Assembly (NCBI GenBank): GCA_034190875.2
Contig: CM067348.1
Location: 22,926,222 to 22,990,221, forward strand
DNA from: Urechis unicinctus
Taxonomy: Eukaryota; Annelida; Polychaeta; Xenopneusta; Urechidae
Length of the DNA: 64,000 nucleotides
Direction of reading: 5' to 3'
Positions within the stretch are counted from its first letter, which is position 1; each line of letters starts with the position of its first letter. Below the pieces are notes generated by a model. The model did no database searches. It was not told where the DNA came from and saw nothing but the letters and a program-made list of their open reading frames with translations. Positions 24,701-30,700 of the stretch are shown piece by piece. Made by a program: the position numbers and the translations under genes.

Positions 24701-27700
24701 GCATGTAGTCATGCATCTGGAGATCAATGACTTTCAGTCCCTGTAAAAAAGAATGGGTACAGTGAGTGTCAAGCTAATTCAGTATGTTGAGAAGAGAGAC
24801 ACAGACAGAAGCCATGATGGCAGTGATCTCCCCCTCTACTTACTCGCTGTCCCTCCATATTCTTGATCCACTTATGCGCCTGACCCTGGGGGTCAATCAT
24901 GAGGGGCCAGCGACGCCCCCTGGTGACTATGACACCGTTCTCCGTGGAGAAACTGTCACTGGGGAGACCCTGGATGTTCCAGTCTCTCACTTGTGTTGGG
25001 TTTACCATGAATTCACAGAAACTGAAGTTACTACTGCATGGAACGCCCAGTTTCCGCACCTAATAAACAATTCGAATATGATGCTGATTTTGAATGATTT
25101 AAATGCTTGATAAACATGTATCATTAATTATGAAAAAATGAATAATGCACAAAAATATGATATGTATTTGTAATTTGAACAATAACAGAAAAATTCCAAA
25201 AGAATCTTCCAGGATTGAAGAATGCAGAGGATGGTGTATCTGTAGGATTTGCAATCGAACTGATGTAAGAATATCCTCTGTGGGAGGAAGACATTACCTC
25301 AGTGATCCATGTCTTTTCAGTGAGGTCATCTCTGTAGTTGGAGAGGAAGGGTCCAGTGTAGGAGAGGAAGGCAGAGGCAATCAAGACATCGCCAATGAGG
25401 TAACCCATACGCCCTTCTAGGTCCTGTCCCACACACCCAGCAATGATCACACAAAGCCCTATTATAATCCCAGACATACATCATAACACAGGACCGTCAG
25501 CTGGTGCTAGACCATCTCTCAGTCACACATGATAAAACCCTCGGTTATCACCTCGACGGTTATCTCCCAGCGATCCCTCTCCCCGGCCAGACCAGACACC
25601 AGTTTAGAGGCGCGGTCCAGCATCATCTCCGTGTGCTCCGCCTTCTTCCTTAGCTCCTCCTTCTGAGCCAGCTTCTCCTCATACTGCTGCTTCAGCTCCA
25701 TCATCTTAGCCTCCACCTGTAATCAGGGCAGGTGCTAATTGTCATCAGGGTAGGTGCTTAAAGTCATCAGCCAAAAAGAGAATGATGAGGGATTAGAGGA
25801 TAAAGTTATTGCCAGGGAAGACAGGTAACACAGGTATATGGATACTATCGTTAAGACCAATTAAGCAACATTAACAACAATGACAAAATGAAGTGATGAG
25901 TTTGTTTCAGTTTGTTGGAGCAATGGGATAAAATCGACATCAGTTCGGTCAGTAGAATATATAGTGTTGTTCATCTGTGCGAATGCTGGTAAGCTCACCT
26001 CAGCCAGCTTATCCTTAGCCTCTTGTAGCTGGGCCTGTTTCTCTTTGAGTGTGGCCTGAGCTGCGTTAAGTCTCTGTCGCTTGGGTTCCACTACTCGGTA
26101 CACCCGGCCATATACCTCCATGGCACGTACCCACATACACAGCGAGCGAGCCGCCAGGGAGACACGACCTATGATGTCTGGCTGGAAGTCCTGCTGGGCA
26201 CAATACTGGCCGATCTTCTTGAGGACTCGGTCAGAAATGTTGTCTTTGTCAAAGAACATGAGTTGCTTGATGAAATTCTGGTCACCTGTAATCAAAATGG
26301 GCTCGATCAATCAATCCAGGTGAGGTGATTAATTGGAGCTGAGGTGATTATATATAGATAAGGTGAAAATCATGAGGTAACACAAGATGGTTTTGCTATT
26401 GTTAACCAATCTCTAATTCATGCCATCATAAAAATTTAACAAATTCTCATCTACTTAATCTACATTATGACAATCATGTGAATGGCAGCTAACTATAACT
26501 AACGGCAAGGTCAACTTAATGTCATTCCACATATATCTTATATGTTTATCACATATATGGTCAAACACATTAACCTCTAGACAATAATGCTGTTGTGTTA
26601 ACAAGGGTAATATAAGATATATACAAGGTGAGTGTAATGCTATAGGTTTAAAACTGAGATTATAAAAGTAGGATAGATGAATATAAGGATTAAATATACT
26701 AATTATGTACATATTGTATGGAGCAACTGGATACCAGCAATGGTAGTTAACACAAAAACAATAACAACACAGCAATATACTAGAATACATCAATAGTCCA
26801 CTTCACACATAATTAAATCTAGTTCAAACCAACTTGGACAAACATGTTACACAATGGAAAACATGCCATAGTGACATATGTCAGTGAACCCACATGAAAC
26901 AAGGCAAGCTTGTTTGTCCTTTCGTCAATGAGAAGAGAGAAGATTGCTATGCAGTCATTTATGGTTAGACTGACCAACATTGTAAATCATAACAAAGATT
27001 TTGTTTTAAAACCTAGTGGGTTCATTGATACATAACTGAGTGCACACATATCAAGGTCATGTCAAGGTCAAACACTCGGGGGCTGTTTCCTTACCGAGTT
27101 GTCGTTTTGACTCGGACCACGTTGGCTCATTGCCCTTTAAGATCATTACCGCTTCCATGACTCTCTCCACCAGAGTAGGTGGTTTCCCATAAGACTTGAT
27201 CTCTGTGATGTCCTTCTTGTTCAGGCTTTCTAAAGCCTGCAGTGATTGACAAAGAGAGGCGGGGCTAAATCACTGTCTGTGATCTCATTGGTTGAAGCCA
27301 CCACATGACAATCTAAGCCATGTGATGCATGGGTCATGACCTCTGGGTCACAAGTGGCTCAATGCATGTGACATTATTAAAGAAAGTGGTGCCACATTTT
27401 TGATCTGGAAGCAATTTGAAAACTGAAAAACAGTTAGCATCCTGAAAATCAGCCCTGGATCAAATAGATGATTCATTAGTCGTATCCAAGAATCGTCAAT
27501 GACCACTCCAGGTATCCAGGTGGGACAATTGCTCTGAAAGACTGAGACAAATGTGCCTGCATCCTCTGATTTCTACAGACATAGGTTAAATGTTACTGGT
27601 ATCCTCATGTATTCCTCTGGGGGGCTAAGGTATGGCTTCCATGATGACCTCTCACCAGCTCGGCAATGTTAACTGTAATGGAGTGAGAAAAGGAAAGAGC

Positions 27701-30700
27701 TAATGACATATTTGGTGAATGAGAGATTAGGTGAATGGACTAACCAAGAAGGGAGTGTACCTTACTTAAGAATTGATCAGAGGAAATATATCACCAGGTG
27801 AATAGATGATTGGTGTAGCAGGCAGCTGGCTTGAATATAATGTTGGTTTTGTACAAGCCAATGAGTGTGCAAGAGAGAGCTTAACAACAAGACCAGAAAG
27901 AGATGGTGGATGATTCCCATGCAGTCCTAGACACCCACCACGTGGTTGTTCCAGGTGCATAGGGAATGAAAATGACTACACATTGTTCATACCAGGATGT
28001 CTGCAGGACGGCGGGGGCGATAACACACTAATTAAAGGTAGATATCTTCTTCATACACTGTGTTATCCACCCCCGACACCCTCCACTCCTGATATGAACA
28101 CTACATGCATATAATGGTTCCACGAGTGATGGAGAAATCGAGAGAGTGTAGATAGCATGGCTAGGAGGGCGCCGTGTAGAGGTCTTACTCAGCTGGCGTT
28201 TGGCCTCAATCCACGTGGGTTCTGCATGACGTAGGATCATGACAGCTTGCAAGACTGTCTCCACCAGGGCCGGGGGGCGCGTAAACGAGCGGATCTCTGT
28301 GATGTCCTTTTTGTTGAGAGATTCTAGAGCCTATATCATTAACCACCCATACACTGTCAACAACTGCTACCTAGAGATTGTTATATCACATGATACGTCA
28401 ACACAATGATCGCCCACATGTTGACTGCCATGAAAACAAGTAAGTCTTGATGGAAATAACATACATTGTAACGGATCACACAAAGCATGATGTTCAGATA
28501 GAGAGGAATTGGCAGCCATTTTGATATACTCCTACTATTTCCCATGCACATTCAGAGAAATGATGAAAGTAGAAATATTACTGGAAAACCAATTTAACTG
28601 CTGAACAAGCATGGATTCTGGATCACTGCTGACATGGCCTAAATATCTAGTAGGTGTATGATGAGGTATAATTGAGGTCACTGACCCTCATGGCTTCCTC
28701 CAGGGCGGGCACTGCCTCATCGAGGTCATGCTGGGCAAGCTCAGCCATGTGGCGACATTTGGTTTCCTCTTCAGCAATCTTCTCACCTTTCTGAGCTACA
28801 GACTGCAGGCACAAGAGGTCAAGGTTGTATAAGGCAAGATCACATGTAGGCCAAGGTCATATAACCATCAAGGTCATCTAACAGTCAAGGTCTCATACAT
28901 GTCAGCGATATGCTCAGCTCAGCAACACATCAAGGATAGGATTAGTACAGGATGACAAAGGATTATCAAAAGAGATGTGCTTATGGTACGTGATGGTTTG
29001 ATAAAAGTCAATGTGTTGATAGTGAGTTCATTGTTCTCTGATGATAAATTGCAATCAATGATGACAAATTGTTCATTGTGCAATTGTCATTTGATGATAA
29101 TGAGAAGTCTGCTTTATAGCTGATCAATTTTTGATTGTTATGATACATGGATACAATAAAACATCCATTGTGCGATGTGCACATCATCCACACAGTGCTG
29201 GCTAGGGACTGCATCAACTCGCAGAATAACGTGCACAGCTAAACATGCTCATCTATTGATCTGATGGTGTTTAACTCCTGCCAGTAGAGGAGATGTTCCT
29301 GCGTCTTATAGATACTTAGTCATATGGAACTTGTAGGCAATGACATTATCCAAGATTATACCAAGAAGATGAGGAGGTTATATAACCACGCATTAAGAAA
29401 TGTTCACATTCAAGACCCAATTTCATATAATAATATTATAGAAATAATGATTTATATTACAAGTCTTAGGCTCACAATCTTCAACCCTAGACTATCACAG
29501 ACAATTAGCACTTTATCTTGAAGGAAGCTGACATATAACTACATTAAAAGTAACCTATAATTGCATCCCAAAAGTTACCAGAATGAGTAGAACATCAGTT
29601 TATATTAAGGACACATTAACACAGGAATATCTGTGTCGACATGATCAACCTTCAGCTGTAACATAGATGTGCATGATGGTAGGATGGAGGTAGGGGTGGC
29701 AGGAATGAGGAGGTACCAGTTTGGTGGAGGGATAAAGTCACACGTGCCTTATTGACCTCAGATGACCTCATTACAGGCACCTCATTACCTCAGCCATCTC
29801 TAAGTCCTCTACTTGCTGCTCAATGATGAATTGAGAAATAACAATGTCAACAATTTTCAAAATATTGTATAGATTCAATTTAGTGTTGTTGTTACAATGT
29901 ACATACAGAAATGACCTTGAACCACGAGTTATTTTTCACATATGAAAGCCCGTAAATAATTACCCCATGACCTTCATGCCATTACCCCGACCTGACACTG
30001 ACCTTCTGCTGTTCATCTGCCTCACGTTTCTGCTGTACAATAACCACCAGATACTCCTCACATTGCTTCTGAAACTGGAACACTTTGGTCTTGGCATCAG
30101 CCAGTTCAACAGACATGGCCTCCACCTTGGAGCGAGTCTCATCGATCTTGTTGAGACCATTCTTGAGTTTGCTGGCTGCGTCTCCAAGCTCCTTACGTTT
30201 CTCATACAGAAGTCTGTAGGCGAAATCAATAAGAAATGATGATAACAGATCAGTCAGAAACAGTAGTCCATAATACACAACATGCCTAGCAGATTCAGAA
30301 GCTATGGGTGATATATATTTCAAAGAAAACGGTTACTGCTTTTTCATTTTTGACACTGTTGTCTTAATAAGTGGCCAGTTATGACAACATTTTGTAACTT
30401 ATATATTGAGCATCATACTCTTTGTATCCAGCTACGAGCTCAAGGTAATTGGTGGGTGTGACATAGTTGTAGCGCTTCATCTCGAGTTCCATGCGTTTAG
30501 AACATATGTTCACCGACTTGTGCATCATAGCAAAGATCTTGGCCAAGTTGGGTTTCATCTTTGTCTGAAAGACAGTAAGAAATCTAATTCAATATCAATG
30601 ATATTTGAGGTCAAGGTCACATAATTCATCTTCAGGTTAATCATAGTAAAGGAAATGAGACTTATCCCAGGTTTAAGTAACGAACAAATATTGACTGTAC

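Follow-up and report, generated by a model that had tools for sequence, protein, structure and literature searches.

Can an axonemal dynein change its hold on the microtubule by splicing? The question is raised by a stretch of 64,000 nucleotides (nt) from Urechis unicinctus (assembly GCA_034190875.2, contig CM067348.1, positions 22,926,222 to 22,990,221 of the forward strand; hereafter the window), in which the gene of axonemal dynein heavy chain 2, DNAH2, carries on the minus strand two homologous exons for the same segment of its microtubule-binding domain (MTBD). We call them exon A (28189..28330) and exon B (27095..27236). The grip of a dynein on the microtubule is usually regarded as fixed for each gene; animals with such an exon pair may change it by splicing. 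Our answer, to which we give a probability of roughly 0.8, is that one MTBD exon of DNAH2 was duplicated in tandem and then kept as a cassette from which the mRNA would take either A or B, with B as the default, A as the regulated choice, and the grip of the motor tuned by the exchange.

Two exons for one segment of the DNAH2 microtubule-binding domain

The gene occupies 14941..60880 of the minus strand in roughly 75 coding blocks, which were located by tblastn with many DNAH2 proteins, and the model is complete apart from the start codon and the first exon. Only DNAH2 proteins served as whole-gene guides. Eight of them (from a nemertean, five molluscs, Lingula and Priapulus) are collinear with the window gene, the alignments reaching about 4400 residues at most, with 66-74% identity; the gene is about 73% identical to lophotrochozoan DNAH2, the nemertean, bivalve, gastropod and Lingula proteins being about equally close. 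When the MTBD exons were joined, the best match among solved structures was the DNAH2 chain 8j07_k9 (E 8.5e-70), whether exon A or exon B was included, and the next family, DNAH6, followed at 2e-39. An earlier reading of this DNA, made by a model from the letters without database searches (the sequence-only reading), had named the gene DNAH2, and both the structural match and the collinear exons uphold that name. Spliced alignment with a bivalve DNAH2 as guide resolved 72 of the 75 block boundaries into splice junctions without stops and left 3 unsolved; one poor junction of the 72 was discarded, and the acceptors and donors of the remaining 71 form the reference set used below.

Exons A and B are each 142 nt long, are bordered by AG before and GT after, and are entered in phase 0 and left in phase 1. 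They are flanked by an upstream exon (28686..28802, minus strand), which ends in phase 0 according to the spliced alignment and the translation of joined exons and which we take to encode the end of the stalk helix CC1, and by a downstream exon (25999..26285, minus strand) that encodes the remainder of the MTBD. The two encoded segments are identical at 34 of 47 residues, with residues 1-13 all the same, and the nucleotides at 96 of 142 positions (68%). Exon A is the more divergent version (RSFTR, RHA, I41, Ser48), and exon B is nearer to the version of other animals. The borders at 28686, 27236, 27095 and 26285 were recovered by the spliced alignment to bivalve DNAH2, from whose chain exon A had been deliberately excluded. 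Both exons exceed the cut-off of 24 bits for the Pfam family MT (PF12777, the microtubule-binding stalk of the dynein motor), A with 25.9 and B with 30.1 bits. The equal lengths, the phases, the 34 of 47 identities and the 13 shared leading residues had all been read from the letters before and were borne out here; so was the location in the MTBD, on which the Pfam scores and the match of the joined domain to the DNAH2 chain agree.

The consequences for the reading frame can be seen by translating the joined exons. With A only or with B only, the frame stays open through the next two exons, the junction residue being Ser with A and Gly with B. When A and B are joined, a stop arises inside B, and when both are skipped, a stop arises in the next exon. 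Because double inclusion and double skipping break the frame, only one of the two exons yields a normal protein, and the reading frame enforces a one-of-two choice for a functional mRNA. The sequence-only reading went further and held that phase forbids the inclusion of both; the loss of frame stands, but the spliceosome itself is not thereby blocked.

When exon B was compared as DNA with the 1.19-Gb assembly, the best candidates being scored, it matched only itself and A, and the pair is therefore not two gene copies put together. Chance resemblance and an assembly duplicate were both ruled out by the 68% nucleotide identity together with the lack of any further match in the assembly. Between A and B, dS is 1.39, dN is 0.26 and their ratio 0.19; there is a deficit of nonsynonymous changes (Fisher P = 2.5e-5), and in the whole-genome protein search B detected A at E = 1.0e-14. 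Neutral simulation at five levels of divergence from 0.35 to 1.39 gave, at each level, 0 of 4000 runs with an open frame and at least 34/47 identity; at a divergence of 0.2, 362 of 4000 runs kept both. Among the 50 intron bases next to the exons, 17/50 on one side and 13/50 on the other are identical between A and B. The high dS and low dN indicate that the duplication is old and that selection has acted on the protein sequence of each copy.

Exon residue n aligns to residue 3294+n of the cytoplasmic dynein-1 chain 5nug_A. The two proteins would differ at 14 residues, 13 within the exon and the Gly/Ser at the junction, and the two segments have the same net charge. We take the differing residues 14-18 to lie at the end of helix H1 and in the H1-H2 loop, and residues 34-36 in the H2-H3 loop. 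Passages of Lacey et al. (PMC6629372) state, citing earlier work, that tight binding needs interactions of H1, H3 and H6; they describe H1 as the part that moves upon binding in the structures, and an insert between H2 and H3 as letting DNAH7 touch the adjacent protofilament. The flap-bearing axonemal dyneins of this paper bear on the present case: in them, variation between H2 and H3, where A and B presumably differ too, alters the contact with the microtubule. That variation is fixed between genes, whereas A and B are alternatives within one gene, and the flap is listed there for DNAH1, 3, 5, 7 and 8, not for DNAH2. From the alignment and this literature on the H1 and H3 contacts it is plausible that A and B form two track-contacting surfaces, and we think that the A/B switch tunes grip or release.

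The same exon in other animals and in other dyneins

Is the second version peculiar to this animal? Three protein searches with E up to 0.001 gave 243 proteins (the best 120 of the 243 being listed), 44 and 85 proteins. Overall, 218 proteins were scanned, 6 of them without a clear segment, and 210 homologous segments (124 distinct) were obtained. Two copies of the segment within one protein were found in none of the 218. Sequences in the protein database are clustered at 90% identity; this conceals most minor isoforms, and the absence of a version is weak evidence either way.

Two clams provided isoform records for this gene. The Mercenaria mercenaria isoforms X4 and X5, of 4528 residues each, differ by 5 substitutions at 3220-3244, within this exon, and are otherwise identical. 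Two Mya arenaria DNAH2 models differ at 3 residues in this exon, in addition to two C-terminal differences. Among 233 protein pairs that share over half of their 8-mers and have at least 2 differences in the exon, only three showed no flank differences (0/300), and all three lie within Mercenaria or within Mya. These records look like the exchange of one exon, the same exon of the same gene as in the window, between identical flanks, and they support the view that both versions are used. The clam versions are 5 and 3 residues apart, whereas the window pair differs by 13 and the junction residue. Common descent of the window and clam pairs was considered and set aside, the FastTree of the segments being too poorly supported. 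The combination of T21 and S41, found in window exon B and among the 210 segments only in P0127 and P0129 (Mercenaria X4 and X2) and P0166 (Dreissena), was kept as a lead.

Exon B was also compared as protein with the whole assembly, where it matched at least 18 places. Two of these are on one contig, C5, 405 nt apart from start to start, and represent tandem MTBD exons on the plus strand (L021:4803-4998 and L021:5208-5403). By their best solved matches the gene is cytoplasmic dynein-1 (E 3.9e-69 and 9e-66 for the two exons, as compared with 4.7e-17 and 4.9e-14 against DNAH2 chains). The two exons are 196 nt each, with phase 1 in and phase 2 out, and 44 of 64 residues are identical; silent sites are saturated, dN is 0.23, and double inclusion leads to a stop in the second exon. 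As in DNAH2, the upstream exon has the poorer acceptor, under a matrix trained on DNAH2. By these matches, two dynein genes of a single animal have a duplicated MTBD exon. The exon ends differ (phases 0/1 and 47 residues in DNAH2, phases 1/2 and 65 residues in dynein-1), so that the two duplications look independent. Both pairs have, in the H1-H2 region, the motif R-S-x-[T/P] in the upstream exon and K-S-x-G in the downstream one. Just upstream of a dynein-1 exon, at about 3670-3880 of L021, a short tandem repeat contains several copies of the apparent acceptor and the first bases of that exon.

Around each of 15 MTBD loci 9.9 kb was fetched, about 5 kb on either side. A convincing second MTBD copy was present at one of the 15, that of dynein-1, or at 2 of 16 when DNAH2 is counted; within about 5 kb, none was convincing at the 14 other loci. 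A 17-residue match at locus L033 (E 0.04), on the opposite strand, was taken for chance. On contig C2, two axonemal-type MTBD exons (L007/L024 and L008/L025) lie about 70 kb apart on opposite strands and are nearly identical, which suggests a recent inverted duplication; both L024 and L025, in spite of this near identity in the MTBD exon, count among the 16 loci.

Mutually exclusive dynein exons are a known kind since 2011. Pillmann et al. (2011, PMC3228551) describe a mutually exclusive exon in the cytoplasmic DHC1 of Schistosoma mansoni; the codons at both of its ends are split. On that description the case is of the same kind as A and B, a choice between two homologous, equally long exons of a dynein heavy chain; DHC1 is cytoplasmic, whereas the window gene is the axonemal DNAH2. 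It is the dynein-1 pair on C5 that fits the description, being cytoplasmic dynein-1 with split codons at both ends. The arthropod muscle myosin heavy chain, treated for Daphnia in the same article (PMC3228551), is like DNAH2 a single motor gene tuned by exchangeable exons; that protein is an actin motor whose exon choice is tied to muscle types, whereas DNAH2 is a microtubule motor. In mouse and human, a passage of PMC3824068 says, cytoplasmic dynein-1 'appears to be a single isoform', and the main text of a human survey of mutually exclusive exons (PMC5740500) does not contain 'DNAH'. Full-text literature searches, with subscription papers mostly outside their range, gave, among the papers listed and mostly from titles and the opening lines of abstracts, none that reports such a pair in an axonemal dynein or says that the part exchanged is the MTBD. 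The earlier statement that no MTBD exon switch had been described in an axonemal dynein fits these searches; it has to be narrowed in that the DHC1 pair is in print and the Mercenaria isoforms were already public.

Choice between the exons and competing explanations

How would one exon be chosen over the other? An acceptor matrix was built from the 71 modelled acceptors of the DNAH2 gene. The acceptor of A scores below all 71 of them and has 6 pyrimidines in 17 positions, as compared with 7-15 in the reference set; that of B outscores 15 of the 71. The position of A below the entire set suggests that B is probably the default exon and A a regulated choice. With 952 nt between A and B, steric exclusion is unlikely. 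The GT-AG borders of both exons give no sign of a mix of U2 and U12 introns. Five modest inverted repeats were found; the idea of competing RNA structures was dropped, there being no related DNA in which to look for conservation.

The proposed mechanism is as follows. Exon B, whose acceptor is the stronger and whose sequence is found more widely, would be taken by default, and A, with its very poor acceptor, would be restricted to cells in which an activator is present or B is repressed. If both exons or neither were spliced in, the transcript would carry an early stop and be lost to nonsense-mediated decay (NMD) or give a dead protein. The 14 differences would extend from the end of H1 to H3, the region holding the H1 and H3 contacts to tubulin, and their likely effect would be an altered affinity or release rate, so that the same motor, which is presumably one of the inner arm, would work differently from one ciliated cell type to another, as between sperm and gill or larval cilia. 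Splicing of both exons in this animal, choice by tissue, NMD and altered binding are steps that we infer.

Several observations weigh against such a cassette. Both donors are low-scoring, that of A outscoring 3 and that of B 7 of the 71. H35 and I41 of A occur in none of the 210 homologous segments, and residue 48, which is Ser in A, is Gly in 208 of them and Ala in 2; these residues set A apart, and a loss of function could be under way in it, with which its very weak acceptor agrees too. In the tree of 48-residue segments, which is poorly supported, A is not grouped with Mercenaria X5. The variable positions common to the DNAH2 and dynein-1 pairs number 5 against 3.6 expected (P 0.25); this overlap is not beyond chance and does not point to a common functional hot spot.

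Part of this would be expected if A were an old duplicate out of use, with B alone being spliced and A left as a relic with a failing acceptor. The score of that acceptor and the three residues absent from all other segments speak for it, as does the longer branch of A (0.26 against 0.09 for B, which is nearer to other animals) in the weakly supported FastTree. Yet A has retained an open frame, a GT donor and its exact phases despite the high silent divergence, and neither the dN/dS of 0.19 nor the simulations, which never gave such a pair at a divergence of 0.35 or more, agree with disuse. The clam records show the same exon exchanged, and the RSFTR motif of A is present in two bee DNAH2 proteins (P0220 and P0221). 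It seems quite improbable that A is such a relic. The stop inside B on joint inclusion and a weak, perhaps regulated acceptor of A would also suit a poison cassette, by which A+B transcripts become NMD targets that set the dose of DNAH2 and the protein encoded by A is irrelevant. Conservation as protein would then be unneeded, yet A keeps its 34 of 47 residues at low dN/dS; moreover, A alone retains the frame, and the clam isoforms replace one version by the other and do not add it. A role in dosage of this kind has in our view very little chance of being the explanation.

Another possibility concerns function only. The A/B choice may be real and yet neutral for the motor, which overlaps with a regulated cassette as far as splicing goes and denies just the tuning of grip. 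Most residues of A and B recur at the corresponding sites in other animals, as judged from the 210 segments, the two segments carry equal charge, and the clam versions are only a few residues apart. Both copies have nevertheless been long retained at low dN/dS, and a like arrangement exists in cytoplasmic dynein-1, so that neutrality is rather unlikely, though it deserves to be taken seriously.

If the retained cassette with tuned grip is the right explanation, there would be natural dynein pairs that differ only near the track-contacting surface, in an inner-arm dynein as well as in cytoplasmic dynein-1. With such pairs one could then ask which residues of the MTBD determine affinity, release and beat parameters, and also whether the motor matches tubulin isotypes or modifications of different cilia. 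A broader proposal, which we put forward tentatively and at somewhat less than even odds, is that a swap site has been reinvented repeatedly at the MTBD exon: in lophotrochozoans DHC1, the main cargo dynein, and the axonemal DNAH2 would have separately evolved two grip modules in the same order, an upstream regulated one with R-S-x-[TP] and a downstream default one with K-S-x-G, combined in DNAH2 with two C-terminal exons. If so, a single motor gene would cover tracks or beat patterns that other animals handle with one fixed grip, and the MTBD pair multiplied by the two alternative C-terminal exons would allow up to four motors from DNAH2.

The last exons of DNAH2 and the neighbouring sequence

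The 3' end of the gene also contains two candidate versions of one exon, both on the minus strand. Last coding exon alpha (15976..16130) is divergent, continues the frame of the exon that ends at 16901 and has its own TAG stop; last coding exon beta (14941..15095) has the same phase as alpha and its own TAA stop, and is nearer to most other DNAH2 ends. The two are identical at 25 of 51 residues. A recognisable protein end was present in 177 of the 218 proteins, of which 170 are nearer to beta and 7 nearer to alpha; of the seven, four are insect proteins, two are from zoosporic fungi and one is from a toad, and for three of them the margin is only about 1 score unit. Two AATAAA signals follow beta. 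Between the alpha stop and beta there is neither AATAAA nor ATTAAA, which makes it less certain that alpha serves as a terminal exon. It is possible that alpha and beta constitute a second isoform switch in DNAH2.

A 2.34-kb tandem duplication with 99.4% identity (11369-13703 and 13700-16035) was observed at this end of the gene. It copies beta (12760-12611) and the end of alpha (13703-13650), and is either a recent duplication or an assembly artefact. Beside DNAH2, on the opposite strand, lies an exon of an ARGLU1-like gene at 8042-8365 (plus strand; Pfam ARGLU). A reverse transcriptase fragment at 3740-4570 (minus strand; Pfam RVT_1) is probably derived from a retroelement.

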